A stretch of 27,866 nt of DNA, taken from positions 1 through 27,866 of IMG/VR virus record IMGVR_UViG_3300033149_003888; one strand, written 5' to 3'. How positions within the stretch are numbered: position 1 is the first letter of the stretch; every line of letters begins with the position of its first letter. Source of the DNA: a virus. Below, one piece after another: positions 5,258 through 27,866 of this stretch. A model generated the notes under the pieces. It had not been told where the DNA came from, did no database searches, and saw only the letters and a program-made list of their open reading frames with translations. Both the position numbers and the translations under genes were made by a program.

Positions 5258-8200
5258 ATGAAAATCTTCGGGTTAGAAATCTTATCGAGAAAATCTTATG
5301 ATGTTCTTACGGAAACGCAAACAAAAATTATGCGGGCGTTAGAAGATTTGGATTGGGTAAATCTGAATGAAGATAAAGACATAAGTATTTTTCTTTCCGG
5401 GGGGGTAAGAAGAGCGATTAAAGAATCAAAGATTTTTTGGTATAATAATCCTCTGGCAGGGCATTGGGTTAATTTAACAACATGGTTTGTTTTTGGAGAA
5501 GGCATTTCAAAGCCGAAAAGCAAAGATAAAGATATTCAAGCGATAATTGACGAATTCTGGGAAGACCCAGATAATAAACTTTCCTTAACTTCCTACCAAG
5601 CGCAAATCAAATTAAGTAATAAAATTCAATATGAAGGAAACCTTTTCTTTTTATTATTTGATGATGAAGAAGGGAATGTCCGAGTCCGAGTATTAAATAC
5701 GGAAGAAATCAAGGATATTATAAAAAATCCTGAAGATAAAATGCGCACAGATTTTTATAAAACCATGCAGATGATAAAAGAATATGATTTTAGATCAGAT
5801 AGTTTTATCACAAAGGGAAACGCGGTTGTATATTATCCTGATAAGGATACATTTAAGCCTGAATATTATGGTATCCCAGGAAATAAGTTGGGGCAGGCAA
5901 GGATTTATCATGTGGCGATAAATGCGGATATAAATGATAAATATGGAATTCCTGAACTATTTCGGGGCAATGCTTGGATGAAAGCGCATAAGGACATGGC
6001 GGGGGATTTGGCGACTTTCATTAAATCGCTTGCTAAGTTTGCTTGGAAGAAGAAGGTCAAAGGAACGCAGGCGCAGATTAACACATTGAAAGCGGCATTG
6101 AAAGCAAGGACTGATTTGAAAAATATTGGGCCAAGTACCGGCTCTACACAGCTCGAGAATGAAGGCGTTAATTTGCAGGCGATAAATACTCCGACAGGCG
6201 GTGTTAAGAACAGCACGGAAGGTTTAAAGTCTATGCAGTTAATGGTAAGCGCGGCCTCTGGAACACCTTATCAGTATTTTGGAGACCCGAGTTGTTATGA
6301 TAAAGAAACGATGGTTTTAACTGAAAAGGGATGGATAAAACATAAAGATTGGATTAATGGAATTAAAATCGCTTCATATAATCCGCAGACGAATTTTCAA
6401 GAATATATCGAGCCTGAAGAATTAAGAATATTTAACTATAAAGGCAAGATGATAAGTTTTCAGAACAAACAGACTGATATTGTAGTAACTCCTAATCATA
6501 GAATGTTTGCGGCCCCTGTTGCGCAGCGGAAAAGGAAAACAACAGGAGATAAATATAATACTGTTGGCAGGAGATACAGATTCATTGAAGCTCAAGACAT
6601 ATTAAAATCTGAAAGAACTCATGGATGGAGAATTATAAACACTGCATCGTATGAGGGGACAATAGAATATAAGAACAAAGATTTTATGAAATTAGCAGGG
6701 TATTATTTAAGCGAGGGGCATTTGACAAAAACAAAGAAGGGTTCATTTGTAATTGGTTTATCTCAAAATGAAGGCGAAACATTAAATAATATGCGTGCTG
6801 TTGTTAAAAGTTTAGGCTATAAATGGCATGAGACATCTAATCAAACAGGATGTATCACATTAAATATCTGCAATAAAAAATTATATAACAAATTATTATC
6901 AATGTTCGGCAAGTTGTCGGGGAATAAATTCATAGACAAAGAAATATTCGAATATGATTTTGAAAGCAGGTGGGCTTTATATCAAGCGATGATGGAAGGT
7001 AATGGAGGCAAAGCCGGAAGGGGATGTTTTAGGTATTCTACTAAGTCAAAACGATTAGCTGATGATTTTCAAATCCTTGCGATGGGGTTAGGGTTTGGAG
7101 TAAGTATAAAATTAGAAAGACAAGGGAAGGTTTCAATATATAAGGTTCTTTTAAGATGCCACTGGAAAACATCAATTATTTTACCTAAACATATAAAACA
7201 AATAGATTATAATGATAAAGTTTATTGTTTCCACGTTCCGCCTCATCATTTATATATCACTCGAAGAAATGGGAAAACTGCTATACAAGGAAATACCGGA
7301 AACCTTGCGACAGCTAAGACCATGGAATTGCCTTTATTGAAAAAGTATCTTGCGAGGCAGAAGCTTTTCCAGGATATATATAATACAATTTTACAGTATG
7401 TTATTGATCGGAAAATAAGTGTGGGAATGCTTGAAGGCGAAGAAATCATCGATGAAAAAAACCAGAGGGTAATATATAAAACAAAAAGGGATAGGGCAAT
7501 TGATCTTGATTTTCCGCCGATAACAGAAGCCGATTTGAAAGAGGCGGCAGAGGCATACACAAAGGCGAAAGACGGGAAGCTTATCAGCAGCGAGCTGGCT
7601 TCGCAGTTGTTTATGTTGGACGCCAACGTTAATAATATCGATCAGGAGATTAAGAAATTAATTGCGGAGGTTGCTAATGAAAAGAAAACAGCCGAACCGG
7701 AGCCGGTGAAAACTGATGAAGGAATAAAAAATAAAATTCTTGCTAAGCCGCTAAAAGAAGCTGTAAGTCAGGCTAAGCCAGATAGGTTTGTAAAAAAAAG
7801 CAATTTTCTCCAAGGGCGGTTGAATGCGTTTAAGAAGGCGATAGGGAAGAATTTTAATAAGTTGAGATCGGATATAAACAAGAATTTAATGATCAATGGG
7901 ATAAATGGGAACATTGTGGGGTTAGTAAAGGATTTTGATGGGATATTGAATAAGTTTGCGTTGAATATGCAGGAGAGCGCAAAGATTTATTTCCCTGAGG
8001 CGATAGATATTGGCACGAAATATATGCAGTCCATATTGAAAGAAAAAGGAATTAAGATCGAGGAAACTATATTTGAGAAGAATAAAGACAGAGAAGATAT
8101 AGAAGAAACCATTTTTACTTTGAATGAAATTGAAGGGCGAGGAAAGACGTTATTGGAGAAAAGCTTGAACTGGAATGAAGAACATTTGAAGAATTCATTA

Positions 8201-11428: not shown

Positions 11429-12397
11429 ATGAGAAGATCATTATTAAAAATGTATAGTGATTTAAAAGAAGCTAATTCTACAAGTGATTTTCCTAAATTG
11501 CTTGCGAATGTGATGCACAAGGCATTGATGAAAAAATTCAAGGGTGTTCCTTCCCCCTGGAGAAGCTATACCATGCAGAGCACATTGAGTGATTTCAAAA
11601 CTCATAAAAGAGTATGGCTGGAAGAAGCTCCTGATCTATTGTTAAAAGAAGAATTGGGGCCTATTGAAGGTTCAAAATTAAAAGAAAATGCGTATGATAT
11701 TTATCTCAAGACTTATGCAAGGGAATTTAGCGTAAGCAGAGAGACAATCATCAATGATGATTTGCAGGAACTGAGAAGACAGCCGGAAAGATTTGGTAGA
11801 GCGGCGGTAAGGACTTTAGTTAAAAAGATTGTTGACCAGATTGAAGGTGATGGAAATACATATGATGGTAAATCACTTTTTCATGTTAATCATAGCAATT
11901 CAGGGTCTACAACCTTGGCGAATTCAGCGGCGGGAATTGCGGCAGTTTCAGCGGCAATGACAGCTATTGAGAACGCAACTGATGAAGGCGGTGAAAAGCT
12001 CGGTCTTACAGCGAAATATCTGCTTGTACCGCCTGATCTTGAAGATACTGCTCTTAGAATTGTTAAGGGGCAGAGTTTTATTCCTGTAAGTACTTCAGGC
12101 GGAACAACTGCTATCGGAAAAGCGACAAGGCTTGAAGTTCTGGTTGAACCGTTCTTAACAAGCTCGACTGGTTGGTATGTTCTGGCTAGTCCAGATGATG
12201 CACCTGTTGTTGAAGTCGGGTTTCTGAATGGAAAAGAAACTCCGGATCTGTTAATCAAGAGAGCGGAAACAATTCAGGTCGCAGGCGGCGAAGAAGATCC
12301 TTATGGATATGAATTTGATGATATGAGTTTCAAAGTCCGCTATGATTGGGCCTTAGCAAGAGCAATGTATCAGGGAATATATAGAGGGAAAGCCTAG
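11429..12397 (+). CDS. Major capsid protein, Mu gpT-like HK97 fold, 322 aa
   Basis: The sequence follows the Mu-like head subunit gpT pattern. It has a helical N-terminus, then KTYAREFSVSRETIINDDL (residues about 93-111), GRAAVRTLVKKIVDQIEGDG, SLFHVNHSN, and a central KYLLVPPDLEDTALRIV segment. The C-terminus has VVEVGFLNGKETPDLLIK and a Tyr-rich FDDMSFKVRYDWALARAMYQ. Length is normal for a gpT-type subunit, with no long delta domain, which fits the separate scaffold upstream. GGAGGT (11418-11423) precedes ATG 11429. A 13-bp perfect hairpin follows the stop and could shield this transcript. It assembles the icosahedral shell. Confidence 0.9.
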   Translation: MRRSLLKMYSDLKEANSTSDFPKLLANVMHKALMKKFKGVPSPWRSYTMQSTLSDFKTHKRVWLEEAPDLLLKEELGPIEGSKLKENAYDIYLKTYAREFSVSRETIINDDLQELRRQPERFGRAAVRTLVKKIVDQIEGDGNTYDGKSLFHVNHSNSGSTTLANSAAGIAAVSAAMTAIENATDEGGEKLGLTAKYLLVPPDLEDTALRIVKGQSFIPVSTSGGTTAIGKATRLEVLVEPFLTSSTGWYVLASPDDAPVVEVGFLNGKETPDLLIKRAETIQVAGGEEDPYGYEFDDMSFKVRYDWALARAMYQGIYRGKA

Positions 12398-12476: not shown

Positions 12477-12851
12477 ATGAGTTTTACATTTGACACAGGA
12501 ACAAATATTGGCAAAGTCAGAGCATTGATAAAAGATACAAATGCGTCTGATTTTTTATTATCTGATGAAGAGATAAATGTTTATTTAGGTATTACTTCAA
12601 ATGAAGTGTTGAGTGCTTCTGCTATGGCATTGAGGGCTATTGTCGCGAATAAAGCTTTGGTTGAAAAATTAGTTGCTTCCGGTGATTATAAAGAAGACAA
12701 CAGAGGGACGGTTAAGGTACTGCTTGCGTTAGCTGATAGTTACGAAAAGCAGGCGAATTCTATGCCCGCAGAAGCGTATTTAGAGCAAAATCTTAACGAT
12801 TTTTCTTATATAGACAATTTATATCGAAGGATATTAAGGGGAGAAGAATAA
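12477..12851 (+). CDS. Head-tail adaptor (connector), 124 aa
   Basis: The N-terminus FDTGTNIGKVRALIKDTNASD is followed by FLLSDEEINVYLG, the 'T.IGKVR.LI.D.....F.DEEI..FL' pattern of phage head-tail adaptors (HK97 gp6 / lambda-like connectors). The middle is helical with Ala repeats (SASAMALRAIVANKALVEKL). The family forms a ring under the portal. AGCAGGTGAG (12466-12475) precedes ATG 12477. It is followed after two bases by the pyruvyl transferase gene, the start of the unusual sugar block. Confidence 0.85.
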   Translation: MSFTFDTGTNIGKVRALIKDTNASDFLLSDEEINVYLGITSNEVLSASAMALRAIVANKALVEKLVASGDYKEDNRGTVKVLLALADSYEKQANSMPAEAYLEQNLNDFSYIDNLYRRILRGEE

Positions 12852-12853
12852 TA

Positions 12854-13813
12854 ATGAAAGTATTTGTGCTTAATTGTGCTGATACTGGGAATTTTGGAGA
12901 TGATATAATATTTGAAGGGGTAAAAAACAGGATTAAAATTCAATTTCCTGAACACAAAGAAATAATTTCAATTAAAAGAATAAATAAAGAAATAGCACAA
13001 ATAATAAGTGAGGATGATTATTTAATTATCGGCGGTGGCGAATTATTATCTTCTTCTGATATTTTAAAACAAATAACAAGCAATGATATTAGATGCCGAT
13101 ATGAATTTTATTCGATAGGAGTTGGCAGCGAAAGCGATATAAAGCCTTATATTGATAAATTAAAACCTGCTGTATGGTCAGGCAGGACTAAGGAAGATTG
13201 CAGAATATTGAATAACGCGGGGATTAAGGGTGTTCTCCATAAAGCAGATCCTCTATTTGATTGCGGTATAAAATTTAGAGAAAAAACGGATTTAATCGGC
13301 ATAAATTTTAAAAATATAAATAAAAACAATGATTTTATAAGAGACGCCGCTTTTCAGCTTGATAAATTACTTGAAAAGGGGATAAAAGCCGAACTTATCG
13401 CGCTGAATTGCCGAAGCAGAGAAGTTATAAAATATTATGGAGAAGATATATATATATCTGATTGTAACGACTTGGAATTGATGTATAAAATAAGCAATTT
13501 AATGGTTAATAAAATAAACATTGTGTATTACAAGAATAACCCTTTAGAGTTTTTAAGCGTGTTAAGCCGGTATCGAGGAATAATCGCAGAGAGGCTGCAT
13601 TGCATAATGAGCGCGTTTTATTGCGGGATAGATTTCAGAGCCATAAGTTATCATAAAAAAATAGATAAGTTTTTGGAAGACCATGATTTAAAAAGCAAAA
13701 AAATTAAGGGGGTGCGGAATGGATTAAGTAATATTGTTAATGAATTAAATAATCTTAAAAAAAGAGGTTCAGGAAACCTAAAAGGAGAAAATCGAGATGA
13801 AAATCTTGCATGA
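12854..13813 (+). CDS. Polysaccharide pyruvyl transferase family protein, 319 aa
   Basis: PF04230-type features are present. GNFGDD (12-17) is near the N-terminus, and IGGGE (59-63) follows. A central GIKGVLHKADPLFD segment has the 'DP' motif. The C-terminal AERLHC (245-250) is followed by ISYHKKIDKFLEDHDL (264-279), a strong family signature. Members add pyruvate ketals to sugars in exopolysaccharides or cell-wall polymers (e.g. CsaB, WcaK type), using phosphoenolpyruvate. The gene overlaps a GT4 gene by 17 bases and starts two bases after the head-tail adaptor, so it is co-translated with structural genes. Its substrate cannot be read from the sequence. Ribosome site GGGGAG (12838-12843). 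Confidence 0.88.
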   Translation: MKVFVLNCADTGNFGDDIIFEGVKNRIKIQFPEHKEIISIKRINKEIAQIISEDDYLIIGGGELLSSSDILKQITSNDIRCRYEFYSIGVGSESDIKPYIDKLKPAVWSGRTKEDCRILNNAGIKGVLHKADPLFDCGIKFREKTDLIGINFKNINKNNDFIRDAAFQLDKLLEKGIKAELIALNCRSREVIKYYGEDIYISDCNDLELMYKISNLMVNKINIVYYKNNPLEFLSVLSRYRGIIAERLHCIMSAFYCGIDFRAISYHKKIDKFLEDHDLKSKKIKGVRNGLSNIVNELNNLKKRGSGNLKGENRDENLA

Positions 13814-14807
13814 ATTAAACCAATTGGATTTCGGCGGTGTTGAAAAAGTAGTCAGGAATATCATCAAGTTTGATAAAGAAAATGAACATACAATCCTTGC
13901 CCATAGAGACGGGGCTTATCGGGAAGAACTTGAAAAAGTAGGGGCAAAAATAATTATTGCTGAAAGGGATAAAGAGGTTATTTTACAAGCGGATGTTATC
14001 CATGTCCATTCAGGCGGTGGGCAAAGTAAATTGATTTCAGATGTTGGTGCTGTTGTGCCTGTCGTGGAAACATTGCATTCCCCTGTGAGATCTTTGGTTG
14101 ATAATAGCCTCATATCTCAACGGGTTGGGGTGACAGATGTTGTAAGTAAAATGAATCATAATTGTATTACGGTCCATAATGGAATAGATTTTAGCGATAT
14201 GGAGACTACTAAAAGCAAGGATGATATAAAAACGGAATTGGGAATTCCAGCCGGAATTCCTATTGTCGGCAGGTTAGGGAGGTTAGGTCAGGATAAAGAG
14301 CTTGAAAATTGGCTTTTAACGTGTTTTTATTTACAGCAGGAAGGTGTTTCATTTACCCCAGTTATTATTGGCCCAGAGGCCTCAAATGCTAAAGGATATA
14401 GGGGTAAATTGAAACTTCAGGCTGAATCTTTGCCGGTTAAAGGGGTTGTTTGGGCGGACGCAAAGGTTGACATTGCAAATTATTTGCAGATTATGGATGT
14501 TTTTCTATATCCTTCCCCGACAGAAGGGTTCGGATTGGTGTTTGTAGAGGCAATTTATTGCGGCGCAACAGTAGTTACTTATAAAACTGATGTAACAATG
14601 GAATTAATCGGCGGATATGCGAGATTAACGGAAAAAAGTATTTATGGGCTTCGGGATGGGGTAAAAGATGCTTTGGATAAAGAATTTGCCTCATCGTTCC
14701 AGGATGATGGGAGGCAGTTTGTGATTGATAATTATTCGGCGCAAAGAATGTCTGCTGATTATCAGGATATATATCGGAAAGTGAAAGAAAATGAGCAATC
14801 TAACTGA
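13797..14807 (+). CDS. GT4-family glycosyltransferase (GT-B fold), 336 aa
   Basis: The N-terminal half has LDFGGVEKVVRNI (10-22, typical GT4 opening) and IHVHSGGG. The C-terminal half has VHNGID (126-131), GRLGQDKELE (161-170) and SPTEGFGLVFVEAIYCGATVV (240-260), whose E243 and E251 form the E-x7-E pair that binds the donor nucleotide. It is a retaining sugar-nucleotide-dependent transferase, probably cytoplasmic. It is slightly short for the family, so the acceptor side may be trimmed. It overlaps the pyruvyl transferase by 17 bases and the following connector gene by 17. AAAGGAG (13780-13786) precedes ATG 13797. Confidence 0.9.
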   Translation: MKILHELNQLDFGGVEKVVRNIIKFDKENEHTILAHRDGAYREELEKVGAKIIIAERDKEVILQADVIHVHSGGGQSKLISDVGAVVPVVETLHSPVRSLVDNSLISQRVGVTDVVSKMNHNCITVHNGIDFSDMETTKSKDDIKTELGIPAGIPIVGRLGRLGQDKELENWLLTCFYLQQEGVSFTPVIIGPEASNAKGYRGKLKLQAESLPVKGVVWADAKVDIANYLQIMDVFLYPSPTEGFGLVFVEAIYCGATVVTYKTDVTMELIGGYARLTEKSIYGLRDGVKDALDKEFASSFQDDGRQFVIDNYSAQRMSADYQDIYRKVKENEQSN

Positions 14808-15396
14808 TATATTAACAGGCAGAGCAAACATAAATAGAAGGACTGCATTTGTTCTTGATGAGGTTGTGCCTGCGGCGACATTAAATCCGGACAGGAATCC
14901 GGCAAAAGCGAGCAGATTAGTTGTAAAGGTTGCCGGTGCAACAGTTTTATCAGGCTTAGTTAATGTTAATGGTAATGTTGCGGAAACTTTTAATTTTAGC
15001 GAAAATGGCGTAGTTGTTGGGAGCAAGGATTTTTCATCAATAGCTACAAATGGCGTAACTATTTCTGGAATTGAAGGCGGTTCAATATCAATAAAAGCGG
15101 TAAGCAGGACAGGGCAGGAAAACACACAGGAAGAAAGAATATACTCTGATTTACCTGTTAGGTTTTATGTCAAAAGGGAAACTGGAAATACAATTGTTAT
15201 GAAGCCGCAGGGGCAAGAAAGCATGATGAAGTATAAAATGCTTGTGGGGCCGGATTATGAAATAAAGGCTAATGATATTGTGTATGCTGTTTCAGGAGTT
15301 ATTGGTTTAACTAGGGGGGTGGTTGAGTTTGCGCAGATGTTTTATGATTTTGCGGGTGCAAGCCATCATCTGGAATGCAGGTTTAAAGATGTTTAA
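14791..15396 (+). CDS. Structural protein with beta-sandwich and head-closure-like C-terminus, 201 aa
   Basis: Residues about 35-110 form a beta-rich, Ig-like domain (RLVVKVAGATVLSGLVNVNG, then GSKDFSSIATNGVTISGIEG). The C-terminal ~70 residues (MKPQGQESMMKYKMLVGPDY..., ending FAGASHHLECRFKDV) have the HHxE ending and strand order I associate with head-tail stopper/closure proteins, in which a beta core seals the connector. Assignment is by pattern and location between the adaptor and gp10-like genes. An Ig-like domain on a connector is a plausible glycosylation target, but that is inference. It overlaps the GT4 gene by 17 bases. Confidence 0.65.
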   Translation: MSNLTDILTGRANINRRTAFVLDEVVPAATLNPDRNPAKASRLVVKVAGATVLSGLVNVNGNVAETFNFSENGVVVGSKDFSSIATNGVTISGIEGGSISIKAVSRTGQENTQEERIYSDLPVRFYVKRETGNTIVMKPQGQESMMKYKMLVGPDYEIKANDIVYAVSGVIGLTRGVVEFAQMFYDFAGASHHLECRFKDV

Positions 15397-15411
15397 TAAA
15401 GGAGGCACAAG

Positions 15412-17769
15412 ATGTCCAAATATGCGATAATTACAACAGTACACAATTCAATCAAACACACTGTTAATTGTGTAGAGAGTGTTTTAGCTCATTCAAAAGA
15501 CTTTGAAATGGTAATTGTTAATAACGGTTCTACAGACGGCACTACAAATTATTTGCGTGAAATAGCTGAAAAGCATGGTAATTTTCATATCATAGAAAAC
15601 AAAGAAAACAAGACTTTTGCCGCGGGGAATAATCAGGGGATTGAATTTGTAAAAAAGAATTTTTCTTCAGTTGAATATATTATCTTCTTAAATAATGATA
15701 CGGTTGTTACACCTAATTGGATTAGCCGAATGGAAGGACATTTTGATAATGTGCCGATTAAAAATATCGGGATGGTTGGCCCTGTTTCTTCGATGTCAAA
15801 TGGGCATCAAATGGTAGGCCGGCAGGATTCAGAGGCTTGGTATAGTCAATATCGGGGAAGGTGGAAACAAGCAGGGATATTGTTCGGCTGGTGTATTATG
15901 GCAAAAGCCAAAGTAATCGAAAAAATCGGCGGATTTGATGAGAGGTTTAAAAATAGCCATGAAGATAATGATTTGTGTTTAAGAGCGCAGCTTGCTGGGT
16001 ATAAACTTATTATCGCCTATGATACTTATATACATCACCTGGGGCAGGGAACAATAAGAAATAAGTATGATATAGAAAAATACAAGGAAAATGGATTTAT
16101 TAACAGGGAAAGATATTACGATAAATGGTATAAGCCAGGGAAGAAAAAGCTTGTGGCGGTATATAGGACTAATGGGGGGAAATATCTTGAAAAGAGCTTA
16201 GAGCAGACTTCTAAATTTGCAAATCATATAATCATTCATTTTTGCAGGTTTGCAAGAGATATAAATAGAGCGGAATATATTGGACAGCTTAGCAAGAAAT
16301 TTCCTAAGATTACAAAGGTAGAGTTTTATGATGGTATTTTCCAAGAAGATTATGAGAGAAACTGGTTGCTGCAGGAAGCGTTGAAGCTGAATAAAGCAGG
16401 TGAAGCTGATTGGTGCATTTCGATTGATGATGATGAAATATATGAAGATAAATTTATTGAACAATGTCAGGCGTTAATGAATCCGAGAAATCCGGAGATA
16501 TTTGCTTATTGGTGCCATTGGCGGACAATTTGGGAAACTCGGCCGGATGGAGAATATTACAGGACTGATTCTACATTCGGCAGGTTCAGCAATTATCGGT
16601 TTTTCAAATTAATTCAAGGGCAGGAAATATATCATGTAACTCATCCAGAGGGGCATCATTGCGGGTCTGCGCCGTTAATTGCTATGGAAAATACAAAATG
16701 GACTAATATTAGAGTCAAGCATTTAGGATATGACACCTCTGAACAGAGACAGAAAAAATACGAATTCTATGAGAAAAATGATAATTTTAAGAGAAAAGAA
16801 GATATAGGATATGAAGATTACCGGCATTTGATAAGTACGAAGGTAGAATTACAAAAATATTGTCCAGACCATGGGATAAGCTGTTTAATAATGGTCAAAA
16901 ACGAGGAAGAACACATATTAGAATGTTTAGAAAATATATATTATTTAGTTGATGAAATAGTGGTTATAGATACCGGCTCAACAGATAAAACTTTAAATAA
17001 AATAGAGTATTTTTCTAAATATAGCAGAATTCCGGTAAAAGTGTTTAAAATGCCGTGGGGTGATAATTATTCTATTCCAAGAAATTTCGGAAAAACAAAA
17101 TGCACAAAAAAGTATATTCTGCACATAGATGCTGATGAAAGATTTGAAATTGGAGATTTAGACAGATTGTTTAGATTGTCTGAAAAAGGGTATGATGCTG
17201 TTATATTTCATGTGGTTAATTATCTTGAACCTATTACAGAGCATAAAAAGCCGAAGTATGCTTCGACTGAGGCGATAAGATTGTTTAGAAATATACCGGA
17301 GTTTTATTATTCGGGTATTTTACATGAAACACTTGATGATTCCTTCTGCGCGTATGCGAGAAGCCATAAGATTAAATTTGATAGATCACACGTGTTATTA
17401 CATCATTATGGTTATTTAAGGCCGGAAAAAAGGTTGAAAGGCAAGTTGCAGTATTATGAAAAGCTGAATGAAAAACAGATTGAGGTAACAGAGGGAAGAG
17501 ACCCGAGACCCTATTATAATCTGGCTTTACATTATTTGAATGGTGATGATATTGGCAAAGCGATGCAGTATTTTCAAAAAAGTTTAGAATTAAATCCGCG
17601 ATTCTGGCATGCTAATCAACAGATGGCCGCATTGAAATTCAAAACTGCTAAACAATTCTTAATAAATGCTTTAGAGAATATGCCAGAGGGGCATCCGTTT
17701 ATTCCTGAAGGAAGGAAAATCGTGGATTTTCTTAACGAGCATTCTTTTGGATGCCAAAAAGTGATATAA
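15412..17769 (+). CDS. Three-domain GT2-type glycosyltransferase with TPR-like C-terminus, 785 aa
   Basis: Three GT-A/GT2-like units follow one another. Unit 1 (about 1-245): IITTVHN, NNGSTDGT (37-44), LNNDT with NND at 94-96, and HEDNDLCLRAQLAGY (183-197). Unit 2 (about 246-485): VAVYRTNGGKYLEKSL and IDDDE (338-342), less typical. Unit 3 (about 488-690): CLIMVKNEEEH, DTGSTDKT (520-527) and HIDADERFE (571-579), a KdtX/WaaE-like GT2. The tail (about 698-745) has a TPR-like YYNLALHYLNGDDIGKAMQY..LELNPRFW unit. DxD-type metal/UDP-binding acids are present in all three units. AAAGGAGG (15398-15405) gives strong translation. It probably extends a glycan in consecutive steps; the acceptor is unknown. 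Confidence 0.88.
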   Translation: MSKYAIITTVHNSIKHTVNCVESVLAHSKDFEMVIVNNGSTDGTTNYLREIAEKHGNFHIIENKENKTFAAGNNQGIEFVKKNFSSVEYIIFLNNDTVVTPNWISRMEGHFDNVPIKNIGMVGPVSSMSNGHQMVGRQDSEAWYSQYRGRWKQAGILFGWCIMAKAKVIEKIGGFDERFKNSHEDNDLCLRAQLAGYKLIIAYDTYIHHLGQGTIRNKYDIEKYKENGFINRERYYDKWYKPGKKKLVAVYRTNGGKYLEKSLEQTSKFANHIIIHFCRFARDINRAEYIGQLSKKFPKITKVEFYDGIFQEDYERNWLLQEALKLNKAGEADWCISIDDDEIYEDKFIEQCQALMNPRNPEIFAYWCHWRTIWETRPDGEYYRTDSTFGRFSNYRFFKLIQGQEIYHVTHPEGHHCGSAPLIAMENTKWTNIRVKHLGYDTSEQRQKKYEFYEKNDNFKRKEDIGYEDYRHLISTKVELQKYCPDHGISCLIMVKNEEEHILECLENIYYLVDEIVVIDTGSTDKTLNKIEYFSKYSRIPVKVFKMPWGDNYSIPRNFGKTKCTKKYILHIDADERFEIGDLDRLFRLSEKGYDAVIFHVVNYLEPITEHKKPKYASTEAIRLFRNIPEFYYSGILHETLDDSFCAYARSHKIKFDRSHVLLHHYGYLRPEKRLKGKLQYYEKLNEKQIEVTEGRDPRPYYNLALHYLNGDDIGKAMQYFQKSLELNPRFWHANQQMAALKFKTAKQFLINALENMPEGHPFIPEGRKIVDFLNEHSFGCQKVI

Positions 17770-17788
17770 AATAATCAGAGAGGGGAAA

Positions 17789-18307
17789 ATGCCTGTAAGA
17801 GGTCAAGATGTAATTGCAAAAAATATTGTTGCTTATGGCGGAGGATTTTTGAAGCACGTCAATAAGCAGATGAAAAAAATTTCTAAGCTTATGGATGAGC
17901 AAGTGCAGAAAAATGCAAGCTTGACAGACCATAGCTTACAGGATTTGAAAATGTTGGGGCATCCGTATTCGAAAAGAAACCCGCAGAAATTGCATGAACC
18001 TGATTTTTTAGTGCATAAGCAATCGGGGAAGTTATTAGAAAGCAAGTATAGCGGAATAAAAGAAGCAAGCATTTCATTATTTCAGTTGAAAGCTTCTGCT
18101 TATGTTGGTTTTGATAAAAATATAGCTCCACATGCTGTATTTGTGATATTTGGAACTTCGAGATCATTGCCAAGTGGTGTAAAGAGTGGAATGGTAGCAA
18201 GAGATGTATTAAGCGGGAGCGTGAAGCAAATAGAAAATAAAGCAGTTGAAATATTGAGAACGAATTTGAAGGATTTTAATTTCAGATTTAGAGGGGCTTT
18301 AAAATGA
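17789..18307 (+). CDS. HK97 gp10-like head-tail joining / tail completion protein, 172 aa
   Basis: The N-terminal long helix (VNKQMKKISKLMDEQVQKNA) is followed by a beta part. The family core near the C-terminus reads HAVFVIFGTSRSLPSGVKSGMVARDVL, close to the 'vefGTs.mpArpFl' motif of HK97 gp10-type proteins, followed by a final helix. These proteins link head completion with tail attachment. It has GAGGGGAA (17779-17786) before ATG 17789 and overlaps the next gene by four bases (ATGA). The order adaptor, closure, gp10-like, terminator matches siphoviruses once the sugar genes are set aside. Confidence 0.85.
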   Translation: MPVRGQDVIAKNIVAYGGGFLKHVNKQMKKISKLMDEQVQKNASLTDHSLQDLKMLGHPYSKRNPQKLHEPDFLVHKQSGKLLESKYSGIKEASISLFQLKASAYVGFDKNIAPHAVFVIFGTSRSLPSGVKSGMVARDVLSGSVKQIENKAVEILRTNLKDFNFRFRGALK

Positions 18308-18720
18308 CTGCGGAAGAAAAGGTATTGATTAAAATTAGAGAAGTTCTGATTGCTGATTCTGTTATTAAGGGATACACAGCGGACAGGGTGTATTCACAGC
18401 ACGTTAGTACGATAAATGACCCTGAATCTCCAGCCATATCATTGCACTTGCTAACAAGTGGTTCGAGGTTTGCGGAAAGAGGGATTGTTGATATGGTGAT
18501 CCAGATTGATATTTGGTTGCCTAATACAGAGTACACTCCGGATGATTTATTAGTGATTGCTGAAAGAATTCGAGCGTTATTAGATAGACAGGATTTAAAA
18601 GATTCGGGATTATCATTAACAGTAATGGGAATTGGAGAAAGTACAAGCGGCCCGATAATGTTTGAAGAAGATACAAATCTTCATCATTATCCAACAAGGT
18701 ATTCGGTGAGTGCGATATGA
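18304..18720 (+). CDS. Tail terminator-like protein, 138 aa
   Basis: The sequence AEEKVLIKIREVLIADSVIKGY...RVYSQHVSTINDPESPAISLHLL, then VDMVIQIDIWLPN...DDLLVIAERIRALLDRQDL and HHYPTRYSVSAI fits the DUF3168 / gp17-like tail terminator layout, with alternating strands and a C-terminal 'YSV' strand. These proteins cap the tail tube at the head end. Length and place between the gp10-like gene and the tail tube are right. It overlaps both neighbours by four bases. Confidence 0.8.
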   Translation: MTAEEKVLIKIREVLIADSVIKGYTADRVYSQHVSTINDPESPAISLHLLTSGSRFAERGIVDMVIQIDIWLPNTEYTPDDLLVIAERIRALLDRQDLKDSGLSLTVMGIGESTSGPIMFEEDTNLHHYPTRYSVSAI

Positions 18721-24422: not shown

Positions 24423-25709
24423 ATGATAAATAATTTTTCTATCAAATATGATTACCGGTTCGATCCTTTCTTGGAAGTTAGTAATGCGGTATCGATAACG
24501 GATGAAGATAAGGTTGTGCCGAGCAGTTCACCTTTTTATATTGATCTTGAAGAAGTGCCCTTGAAAGAAATTCCCTCCACGATAACAGCGTATGATGTTA
24601 CTGACGGAGTTACACTTACAGAAGTAACTTCTACGCCTGGCTCAAACGAATTTCAAGTTGACTGGAAATATTTAACTGGGAAAGTTAGATTTAATTCTGC
24701 TCAAAGCGGAAATACGATAAGGTTTAATTACAAGGGGACTGGGCATTCGGTTGCTGCGACATTTCTAAATGTCTTGGCTAATTGGATCGGGGCAGGATAT
24801 ACATTAACAGATGCGCATGACCATGATGGACAAAACAGTAAAAAAGTAACAGGAACGGCTGACAATACTATTACAGGTGCTATGATTCAGCAAGATGCGG
24901 TAACAAGTGAAAAAATTCAAGACGGGACTATTAATGCGACAAATATGGCTAATTCGGCTATTACAGAAGCGAAGGTTGCCGCCAGCGCAGTTTCTCAATC
25001 GAAATTAAAAACATCACAAGGGGAAGTTTCTCATGGTGGTAGCAGTGTGGCGCAATATACTTTACCGGGCGGTGAGTATGGATTTTATCCACAAATTAAA
25101 ATGGCAAATACAGGTAGCTATACTTATGACGCAAGTATAATTGGAGAGGCTACATTTGCAGGGTGGACGTCTTATGTTACAAAAATTGGCTTAAAATCTG
25201 GAGGCGTCCCTTCATATATTTATGCACAACAAAGATATATAACTTCGTCGGGTAAAGATCATTGGATTTTCTTATTAGTGGATAAGGCAACTAAAAATAT
25301 TGTTTCTTCTTGGCAAGCACCTGACCATCCTTCTTATGGGAGTAATGCTGATGAAAATGAAATGACGCATCCGTTTGGTGCTTTCGATGGAACGAAATAC
25401 GAAGTGGTGCTTGTTGATAATGAAATACTGAACGAATTAAAAAAGAAAATTACTCGGAAAAAATCTATGCTTACTCTTATTAACGAAGAGTACATGGTTG
25501 ATGAAACTTCAAGCCCTGAATATGAACCAAGAGAAATAATCGAAATTGACGAGTTTGGCGATATGCCTGGTGAAGTCTTAGGCGAGTTTGATACTCCGGA
25601 TTGGGCGAGGATTAAAATTAAAAAGGATAAATTTACATTGAAAAAAAGAATAGTTGAAACGTTGCCTCCAATAATTAAATACAAAAGGTTAAAAAGGAAG
25701 GGTGTATAA
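24423..25709 (+). CDS. Tail fibre / receptor-binding-like protein, 428 aa
   Basis: The N-terminal ~110 residues are a beta domain (SAQSGNTIRFNYKGTGHSVA). A region with the HDHDG motif (TLTDAHDHDGQNSKK) follows. Next come short Ala/Ile repeats (ADNTITGAMIQQDAVTSEKI, then QDGTINATNMANSAITEAKV, AASAVSQSKLKT), typical of a trimeric fibre shaft, encoded at about 24,840-25,010. Then there is a globular beta domain (VSHGGSSVAQYTLPGGEYGF onward) and a highly charged, Glu/Lys-rich C-terminus. AAAGGGAGTGA (24408-24418) precedes ATG 24423. I assign it as a fibre from its repeat architecture and its place after the hub. Confidence 0.75.
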   Translation: MINNFSIKYDYRFDPFLEVSNAVSITDEDKVVPSSSPFYIDLEEVPLKEIPSTITAYDVTDGVTLTEVTSTPGSNEFQVDWKYLTGKVRFNSAQSGNTIRFNYKGTGHSVAATFLNVLANWIGAGYTLTDAHDHDGQNSKKVTGTADNTITGAMIQQDAVTSEKIQDGTINATNMANSAITEAKVAASAVSQSKLKTSQGEVSHGGSSVAQYTLPGGEYGFYPQIKMANTGSYTYDASIIGEATFAGWTSYVTKIGLKSGGVPSYIYAQQRYITSSGKDHWIFLLVDKATKNIVSSWQAPDHPSYGSNADENEMTHPFGAFDGTKYEVVLVDNEILNELKKKITRKKSMLTLINEEYMVDETSSPEYEPREIIEIDEFGDMPGEVLGEFDTPDWARIKIKKDKFTLKKRIVETLPPIIKYKRLKRKGV

Positions 25710-25710
25710 A

Positions 25711-27606
25711 ATGAAAATGTCTTGGCTGTTTTTCCCATTGTTGTTTTTTCTATCTTGTAATCTTGTGTTCGGGCAGGGAATGCCTGTATTAGACTGGGCT
25801 GAATATATCGAAACAGATACGAGCAATTTTGATAATAACCTTTCCGGTGATGATGATACGGTACAAAAAGCGTTAGATAAGCTTGATGATATGTCCAGCG
25901 GCGGTTCTATTTCAGATGATGCTTACGGAGCAAGCTGGGACGGAGATACAACAACAGGAGCGTCAAGAAATGCGATATATGATAAGATAGAAACTTTAGC
26001 TGGAGGGCACGATGCTGTTACCTTGGACGCTAATGCTGATACTTTGCTTAGCTTATCTGGTCAAGAGTTAGGGTTAGATACGCAAACGGCGAATTATATA
26101 TTTTCGGGGCCTTCCTCTGGTGCGCCCGCAGTGCCGTCATTTCGGGCATTAGCCGATGATGATATACCGAATGCGATAACTGTTACTCCAATAAACGCAA
26201 CAACTGAGTCGGCGATTGAAGCAGTTGTTGATTTGCAAGATCTGCAAGGCGCGGTTACCGACTCTCAGGTCCCTGATGATATTACCATTACAGAGACAGA
26301 TCCTAATGCTCTTTTAACCGCGGGAACTGATAATGTGAAGGACACTCATATTGACTGGGGTTCAGGGGCCGGCCAAGTTGACTCAGACGATATTCCAGAA
26401 GGAAGCACAAATTACTTTGACGATGATGGGGTTGATGATGATGTCCCGGAAGCGGGAGACTATACCAATCTTACCGGCGGTACTGCAATCACCAATTCTC
26501 CCACTGGCACTATTAACGTTGACATAGCGGCAATAACAGACGGAGACACTACACACGTTCCAAGTTCTGACGGGGTATATGATTTTTGTGAAACTACCCA
26601 AGATTATCTCAAAACCTCAGAAAATAACGATAGTGCTGACGATGTTACTGACGACAATGTCGAAAGTATGGCTACCGCAGGGGTCTCGGGGACCAGTCCT
26701 ATTAGTGATGGTGCTGGCGCGTTAGCCATGACTGATGTTTTGACAGAGGCAGAGCTGGACACAGAGGCTGAATTAGAAGCGCAAATAACAGACATGGCTA
26801 ATATTATTCAAGCCACGGAGATTGATACAGAGGCAGAATTTGAGGCTATTTGCGCGTCTTTGAACTTCATTATATCGACAGAGATTGATACGTCCGCTGA
26901 ATTAGCCGCGATTATTGGCGACGAAACCGGGTCTGGCGCGGCGGTGTTTGCTGCCTCGCCGACATTGGTAACACCGACACTTGGGGCGGCCACAGCTACC
27001 ACGCTGGACACAGGACAAGGGGCGCATGAGCTGTATGCTATGGACCAGGACGTACAAACAACAGACGCGGTTACCTTTGCCACTGTTGACACCGGCAACG
27101 GGGCTTATGAACTGCAGGACGCCTCTGATATTGCTAAGGGAATGGTAGAATTGGCGACCAGTGCGGAGACTACCACAGGCACAGACGCGGCAAGGGCGGT
27201 TACTCCCGACGGGATAGCCGGCAGTGATTATGGTAAAAGGGTTATTCAGCTTAAACTTACTAACGAAGATACCGCGCTGTCTACCGGAGACGGGGCGATT
27301 ATATTTGTTGTCAGCTCTGAACTTAACGGATATAACCTTGTTGACGCGGACGCTGCGGTTACAACTGTATCTTCTTCCGGCACTCCGACATATCAGGTTA
27401 GGAATGTTACAGACAGCGTGGATATGTTATCTACCAGCATAACAGTAGACGCCAGTGAATATACAAGCTATACTGCGGCGACTCCGCCAGTGATAGACAC
27501 TACCCATGATGATGTTGCTACAGGCGATTTAATTGCCATAGACAAAGACGTTGCCGGCACTGGCGAAAAGGGCGATATTGTTGTTTTAACGTTTCAGAAA
27601 CCGTGA
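25711..27606 (+). CDS. Secreted-type, repeat-rich tail fibre-like protein, 631 aa
   Basis: ATG 25711 follows AAAAAGGAAGGG (25691-25702). Residues 1-22 are a textbook signal peptide: KMS, then WLFFPLLFFLSCNLVFG with cleavage after G21 likely. Cys16 gives only a poor lipobox. The mature part is acidic, Thr/Ala/Gly/Asp-rich, and carries fibre motifs: FDNNLSGDDDTVQKALDKLD, GSGAAVFAASPTLVTPTLGAA, and DIAKGMVELATSAETTTGTDAARAVTPDG, all familiar from phage side fibres. There are degenerate TEIDTEAE repeats. A signal peptide on a phage fibre is odd. The gene is far richer in GC than its left neighbours, which suggests acquisition by transfer. Confidence 0.72.
   Translation: MKMSWLFFPLLFFLSCNLVFGQGMPVLDWAEYIETDTSNFDNNLSGDDDTVQKALDKLDDMSSGGSISDDAYGASWDGDTTTGASRNAIYDKIETLAGGHDAVTLDANADTLLSLSGQELGLDTQTANYIFSGPSSGAPAVPSFRALADDDIPNAITVTPINATTESAIEAVVDLQDLQGAVTDSQVPDDITITETDPNALLTAGTDNVKDTHIDWGSGAGQVDSDDIPEGSTNYFDDDGVDDDVPEAGDYTNLTGGTAITNSPTGTINVDIAAITDGDTTHVPSSDGVYDFCETTQDYLKTSENNDSADDVTDDNVESMATAGVSGTSPISDGAGALAMTDVLTEAELDTEAELEAQITDMANIIQATEIDTEAEFEAICASLNFIISTEIDTSAELAAIIGDETGSGAAVFAASPTLVTPTLGAATATTLDTGQGAHELYAMDQDVQTTDAVTFATVDTGNGAYELQDASDIAKGMVELATSAETTTGTDAARAVTPDGIAGSDYGKRVIQLKLTNEDTALSTGDGAIIFVVSSELNGYNLVDADAAVTTVSSSGTPTYQVRNVTDSVDMLSTSITVDASEYTSYTAATPPVIDTTHDDVATGDLIAIDKDVAGTGEKGDIVVLTFQKP
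26743..26910 (+). repeat. Degenerate TEIDTEAEFEA-type coding repeats
   Basis: Three units read TEAELDTEAELEA (from 26743), TEIDTEAEFEA (from 26815) and TEIDTSAELAA (from 26878). The last two starts are 63 bases (21 codons) apart. They fall in the middle of the fibre-like protein and have drifted at the nucleotide level, so they are an old duplication, probably giving a coiled or beta-helical shaft rung. Confidence 0.7.
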
Positions 27607-27614
27607 GGGATTGT

Positions 27615-27866
27615 ATGAGAGCAATAGTTATATGCTTAATATTACTGATTACTGTTAACTGTTTTGGCGCGGAATTTTTAATATTAGCCCGTCCGCATTG
27701 GTATGACCGAATAAGCGATGAGGAAAAAACCGCCCGCGAACTTGACGCCGCAGAATTTGAAAGCAGATATGTTATCGGCGATATCGTGGATGTCTTTCCT
27801 GACGGGCGGCTGGGACAATATGCCGACGCTAACGGCACGTTTTATGTCGTGCGGGTAAAGGGGTTG
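27615..27866 (+). CDS. Partial small protein with signal-peptide-like start, 84 aa visible
   Basis: ATG 27615 follows GAGGGA (27605-27610), nine bases after the previous stop. The frame runs open to the end of the window. Residues 1-19 (MRAIVICLILLITVNCFGA) are a hydrophobic signal-like or TM segment. After it comes EFLILARPHWYDRISDEEKTA, then GDIVDVFPDGRLGQ..., ending FYVVRVKGL. From memory this 'PHW ... GDxVxVxPDG ... F.VV.VxGL' form is common in small phage structural proteins found next to fibres, usually without a leader. GC-rich like the gene before it. The remainder lies outside the window. Confidence 0.6.
   Translation, partial: MRAIVICLILLITVNCFGAEFLILARPHWYDRISDEEKTARELDAAEFESRYVIGDIVDVFPDGRLGQYADANGTFYVVRVKGL

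Follow-up and report, generated by a model that had tools for sequence, protein, structure and literature searches.

What are sugar-modifying enzymes doing among the genes that join a phage head to its tail? The question is raised by an IMG/VR virus record, linear and 27,866 bases long, which in its entirety forms the stretch analyzed (hereafter, the window) and which probably represents an incomplete genome. Its genes form a siphophage run of terminase, portal, protease/scaffold, cement, capsid and adaptor, then enzymes together with connector genes, followed by tail tube, tape measure, Dit, Tal and fibres. A preliminary description had placed a polysaccharide pyruvyl transferase homologue (PvTs) and two glycosyltransferases among the connector genes, and this is borne out: all three enzyme open reading frames and the flanking structural frames are present, with clear profile matches (Table 1). 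We assign a probable adaptor function to the product at the left border from its position, and all relatives that could be read in this region have a homologue downstream of their capsid gene. At the right border, the gene of a distant relative (L053) at the position of the window neck gene matches PF04883, HK97-gp10_like.

Table 1. Capsid, connector and sugar-enzyme genes of the window, with the evidence for each assignment.
Feature	Coordinates	Strand	Evidence
Major capsid protein (MCP), lineage reference gene	11429..12397	+	PF25209 E 3.3e-42; 14 distinct relatives at >=40% identity
Putative head-tail adaptor, left border of the cassette	12477..12851	+	phrog_18316 E 3.9e-7 (profile without assigned function)
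Polysaccharide pyruvyl transferase homologue (PvTs, PF04230)	12854..13813	+	PF04230 E 1.3e-13
GT4 glycosyltransferase	13797..14807	+	PF00534 E 1.6e-16
Probable head closure (stopper) protein	14791..15396	+	phrog_615 (head-tail adaptor) E 0.0013; AlphaFold + Foldseek
Triple GT2 glycosyltransferase with C-terminal TPR	15412..17769	+	PF00535 E 3.6e-47
Neck / HK97 gp10-like protein, right border of the cassette	17789..18307	+	phrog_5 E 6.5e-4
Probable tail terminator	18304..18720	+	phrog_78 E 0.027 (weak); position conserved in relatives

Two further features of the structural genes stand apart from the cassette. The window portal is interrupted by an intein (residues 346-679, LAGLIDADG_3; window 6293-7294), and the portal of L005 has no insert at that site. 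Fibre-like or repetitive proteins with apparent signal peptides are encoded in the structural region of the window (25702-27606 and 27603-27866), L005 (2319-5102), L047 (3729-7134), L019 (11037-11786), L020 (9653-12329) and L031 (1193-1663). Such signal-peptide-like starts, read by eye, are odd for virion proteins.

The genes of the module are tightly packed, most of them with an SD-like sequence upstream, and promoter-like matches were not above chance expectation. Both of the 17-base overlaps reported for this region exist, but only one (14791-14807, GT4/closure) joins a sugar gene to a structural gene; the other (13797-13813) joins two sugar genes, those for PvTs and GT4. From this layout, the module may be expressed as one late translational unit. 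The gene order is not a product of chance, because it recurs in related phages.

Searches from the capsid, closure, GT4 and GT2 proteins reached 17 distinct phages, the window included. For an unbiased count we relied on a scan with the capsid alone, in which 18 loci at >=40% identity collapse to 14 phages. GT4 lies downstream of the capsid gene in every phage of the capsid-only scan (14/14), and a GT4 homologue is present in 17/17 of the wider set. Nine phages could be read from adaptor to neck on one contig (the window, L006, L007, L008, L028, L029, L031, L044 and L046), and all nine have the order adaptor, variable gene content, GT4, closure, variable gene content, GT2, neck. The other contigs start or stop inside the block; none contradicts the placement of GT4 before GT2, and L048 has a closure-like gene upstream of its capsid gene. 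In the order pyruvyl transferase-GT4-closure-GT2 that had been proposed for a search across phages, the last three genes recur in 9/9 and PvTs is present in 4/17. Distant relatives carry a compact block without these enzymes, namely L053 (39% capsid identity), cultured mEp460, cultured Methanoculleus virus L4768 and a second Omnitrophota element, L070. The cassette is a trait of the lineage.

Two loci outside this pattern deserve mention. In L055, which is GC-rich and still more distant, two GT4-like genes precede an HK97 gp10-like neck gene (14330-18185), perhaps an independent case or insertion. The second half of the L046 contig (L065-L067, 44-95 kb of 95 kb) is mostly on the opposite strand and resembles a further phage genome that has GT2-like, sugar dehydratase-like and radical SAM-like genes to itself; the 95 kb contig may be a chimera or a large phage.

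We compared the inheritance of the enzymes with that of the capsid. In pairwise identity, GT4 and GT2 track the capsid (Mantel r 0.75 for GT4 and 0.74 for GT2; p 2e-4, the lowest value that 5,000 permutations allow), and the adaptor, closure and tail tube do likewise. Clades L028+L029, L046+L047 and L019+L020 are recovered in both the capsid tree and the GT4 tree, and one supported conflict is a pairing of L005 with L006 in the GT4 tree. For the L046/L047 pair, dN/dS is 0.079 for MCP, 0.084 for PvTs, 0.068 for GT4 and 0.086 for GT2, values that are approximate because dS is near saturation; purifying selection on GT4 and GT2 is thus of capsid-like strength. The accessory enzymes are more varied: neither the radical SAM gene (r -0.12) nor the MptE-like gene (0.30) correlates significantly with the capsid, Methyltransf_24 does so weakly (0.36, p 0.016) and Methyltransf_11 tracks it (0.96). 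PvTs occurs in the window, L031, L046/L045 and L047, and a radical SAM gene in seven other phages, six of which also encode a stand-alone MptE-like protein; in L019, MptE is fused to a methyltransferase. PvTs and radical SAM co-occur in 0/17 phages (chance probability about 0.09), which is suggestive of mutual exclusion between PvTs and radical SAM/MptE. The preliminary description held that the sugar genes are not a moron. For the core of GT4 and triple GT2 we agree, because it is inherited with the virion genes and constrained like the capsid; the claim does not extend to PvTs, with its patchy presence and other tailoring enzymes elsewhere. A check for donor-sugar genes, as had been advised, recovered dTDP-glucose 4,6-dehydratase-like genes, none of them in the window record, in three relatives: L048 (12133-13188, directly before GT4), L019 (200-1189) and L059, on the L005 contig.

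PvTs matches PF04230 at 51.9 bits against a curated cut-off of 25.3, the match running over residues 13-267 and positions 1-279 of the 280 in the profile. Its three phage homologues (44-48% identity) also match PF04230 and occupy the same slot, each directly before GT4. Candidate PEP-site residues are R111, R247, H249 and K269. The R247-x-H249 pair and K269, which lies 20 residues after the histidine, are invariant in the four phage homologues and spaced as in CsaB, in which R306-x-H308 and K328 have roles in PEP binding (PMC10435577); R111 is, by motif alone, a candidate equivalent of CsaB R148. CsaB and Pvg1p, both PF04230 proteins, differ in having cellular roles in the cell wall or in glycans, and PvTs scores below the cut-off of the CsaB equivalog TIGR03609 (E 7.6e-14, 51.7 bits against 213.1). 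Its structural model, of moderate quality (pLDDT 72), matches GT-B proteins including Pvg1p, but it matches the whole GT-B superfamily and the structural match is therefore not specific. A pyruvate ketal is the predicted product. Acquisition of PvTs from hosts was considered and rejected, as 384 Omnitrophota genomes held no close homologue beyond the prophage described below. Searching viral contigs with PvTs gave just two short matches of 44 residues each, which were set aside; phage records held no match to PvTs or GT4, and plasmids held none to the L046 PvTs homologue. A known defence system was also rejected, with only weak matches for PvTs, and the viperin-like radical SAM similarity of an accessory gene in L007 was read as superfamily resemblance.

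The glycosyltransferases are likewise well supported by their profiles. GT4 matches PF00534 (Glycos_transf_1) at 60.7 bits against a cut-off of 26.4, and both glutamates of its EX7E motif, E243 and E251, are invariant in 12 aligned sequences. GT2 matches PF00535 at 160.8 bits and contains as many as three GT2 stretches, plus a TPR at residues 698-745; in an alignment of GT2 relatives, D96 and E184-D185 of the first domain are invariant and the third domain carries DAD (or DCD). Homologues stripped of catalytic residues, which the preliminary description had named as evidence against its proposal, are thus not what we see: PEP-site residues and glycosyltransferase motifs are conserved. By sequence, the closest solved natural glycosyltransferases to the third GT2 domain (489-690) are GmaR, a flagellin GlcNAc transferase (E 3.3e-18), and SunS, the sublancin S-glycosyltransferase (E 6.5e-10), and the GalT1 structure 5hea is also among the solved-structure matches. 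GmaR and SunS have a single GT domain, whereas the third domain here is fused behind two more, and GT2 scores far under the cut-off of TIGR04195, the SunS peptide S-glycosyltransferase family (E 4e-13, 49 bits against 350). TPR and GT domains are also combined in FlmG of Caulobacter. That protein is described as a modular cytoplasmic protein O-glycosyltransferase (PMC7591256), and the likeness is one of description. A simple hydropathy test detected no TM-like segment in any of the seven enzyme families.

Between the two glycosyltransferase genes lies the closure gene, whose position fits a head closure/stopper role. Its AlphaFold model (pLDDT 86) matches SPP1 gp16, xkdH and the phiXa and phiCD508 necks in Foldseek (prob 0.96-0.97; E >0.01 for several closure structures and none <0.001; TM 0.40-0.51 on target). 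The weak E-values are probably due to an inserted beta (Ig-like) domain at approximately residues 27-115. We rejected this insert as a universal glycan acceptor, since L028 and L029 lack it and yet keep the glycosyltransferases.

One relative points to the host. The contig with L031 belongs to an Omnitrophota MAG, and on it host genes (recognized by inspection as ribosomal-protein, dnaB and lpx genes) are followed by an integrase (PF00589, 1.8e-30), a repressor-like gene and then the phage. L031 is a prophage in an Omnitrophota chromosome, and the contig stops within its tail region. Scanning 384 Omnitrophota genomes with the GT2 alignment returned this prophage as the sole match, and the phage of the window presumably infects Omnitrophota too. 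The prophage keeps its sugar genes inside the structural block and not in a separate conversion cassette. Between their portal and protease genes, L031 (1635-2708) and L020 (4845-5873) encode multi-TM proteins, 27% identical to each other, that by eye are Wzy/O-antigen-polymerase-like and have no informative family match.

Taken together, the best reading of the cassette in our view is that it glycosylates a phage protein in the cytosol, with interchangeable enzymes doing the tailoring, and we hold this with slightly more than even confidence. The cassette would be a glycosylation set that an uncultivated siphophage lineage carries among its head-tail connector genes. GT4 and the three-domain GT2 would draw on host nucleotide sugars to assemble a short glycan, in the cytoplasm and straight onto a phage protein made concurrently, and the exchangeable enzymes would then tailor it: PvTs in the window, and methyltransferases, radical SAM with the MptE-like enzyme, or dTDP-glucose dehydratase in relatives. 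Direct attachment to protein is a prediction from sequence, and both the identity of the acceptor and late expression are likewise presumptive. We favour a phage protein as substrate because the core is fixed among virion genes, co-inherited with them and constrained, because the third GT2 domain is like protein glycosyltransferases, and because the cassette has no membrane component. A more ambitious version, which we advance only tentatively and think doubtful, is that this Omnitrophota phage lineage has made the glycan a fixed part of the virion; the enzymes would belong to the connector module, and tailoring enzymes, including PvTs with its anionic ketal, would be swapped like serotypes while the core stays.

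Several observations pull away from phage-protein glycosylation. Enzymes with GT2 and GT4 folds are also used to make lipid-linked host polysaccharide, which is where PF04230 enzymes usually act; the multi-TM proteins of L031 and L020 could be polysaccharide polymerases; and the SunS and CsaB scores are far under the family cut-offs. The main competitor is late remodelling of host surface polysaccharide (LPS/O-antigen), blocking re-adsorption to the dying cell or its debris. Pyruvyl transferases with GT4 and GT2 enzymes are typical of surface polysaccharides, the L031 host has lpx-like genes, two relatives have the Wzy-like membrane protein by appearance, and in Eggerthella lenta prophages a PF04230 gene is part of an exopolysaccharide operon (PMC8778435). 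Neither a membrane enzyme nor a flippase was found in the cassette, however, and its genes sit in the structural block, not adjoining the repressor, with the last GT2 domain nearest to protein glycosyltransferases. We judge remodelling unlikely; of the two readings offered by the preliminary description, virion (phage-protein) glycan synthesis is the better supported and late change of the host surface the weaker.

The acceptors might instead be fibre-like phage proteins, rich in Ser/Thr and bearing signal peptides, that receive their glycan before being exported, like serine-rich adhesins. Cytosolic glycosyltransferases that modify proteins in this way are known, and GalT1 is among the structure matches. 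Such proteins are encoded in the structural region of the window and many relatives, but they vary widely in position and sequence while the core enzymes stay fixed, and the signal peptides were judged by eye alone; we find this improbable. Less probable again is that the cassette is simply a place where inserted metabolic genes are tolerated, unrelated to one another and sharing no product. Several accessory genes are indeed exchanged with little or no tracking of the capsid, but the GT4 and GT2 core occurs in all members, follows capsid divergence and is equally constrained, and the separation of PvTs from radical SAM/MptE, suggestive as it is, also speaks against such a miscellany. Least credible of all, to the point of being very improbable, is glycosylation of hydroxymethylated phage DNA: phage glycosyltransferases can hypermodify DNA, according to a reference cited in PMC12619734, but a thymidylate synthase/hydroxymethylase family gene is found in 0/18 virus records (mostly incomplete), and the third GT2 domain resembles enzymes that act on protein.

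Known viral systems offer partial parallels to phage-protein glycosylation. The preliminary description called a pyruvylated capsid or tail glycan undescribed. This is too broad, because Mimivirus fibrils carry a 4,6-pyruvylated GlcNAc polysaccharide and the glycogene cluster includes a putative pyruvyl transferase (PMC9614988); we found no example in a phage. In Mimivirus and Megavirus the putative pyruvyl transferase (L143, mg538) lies beside glycosyltransferases, including the Megavirus gene mg539 with three GT domains, and the Mimivirus cluster has methyltransferases too (PMC9614988). The likeness is one of gene content: these are eukaryotic giant viruses, whose clusters also make nucleotide sugars and lie outside a connector block. 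In the mycobacteriophages Che8 and Rita (Freeman 2023, as cited in later papers), phage-encoded glycosyltransferases are linked to the virion, with glycans reported on capsid and tail-tube subunits. Those glycans are chemically shown; in the window lineage a glycan is predicted. The mycobacteriophage hosts are actinobacterial, the glycosyltransferase genes are placed close to the 3' genome end (Maravista, PMC11256854) and not between connector genes, and the citing papers note no pyruvyl transferase or exchangeable tailoring set.

The cassette is the first candidate that we found for a pyruvylated phage glycan, and it supplies a concrete enzyme set to assay. If glycosylation of a phage protein is its function, virion glycosylation would prove to be both ancient and conserved in a phage lineage outside Actinobacteria, with its enzymes encoded among the genes of particle assembly and with an outer decoration that can be switched.
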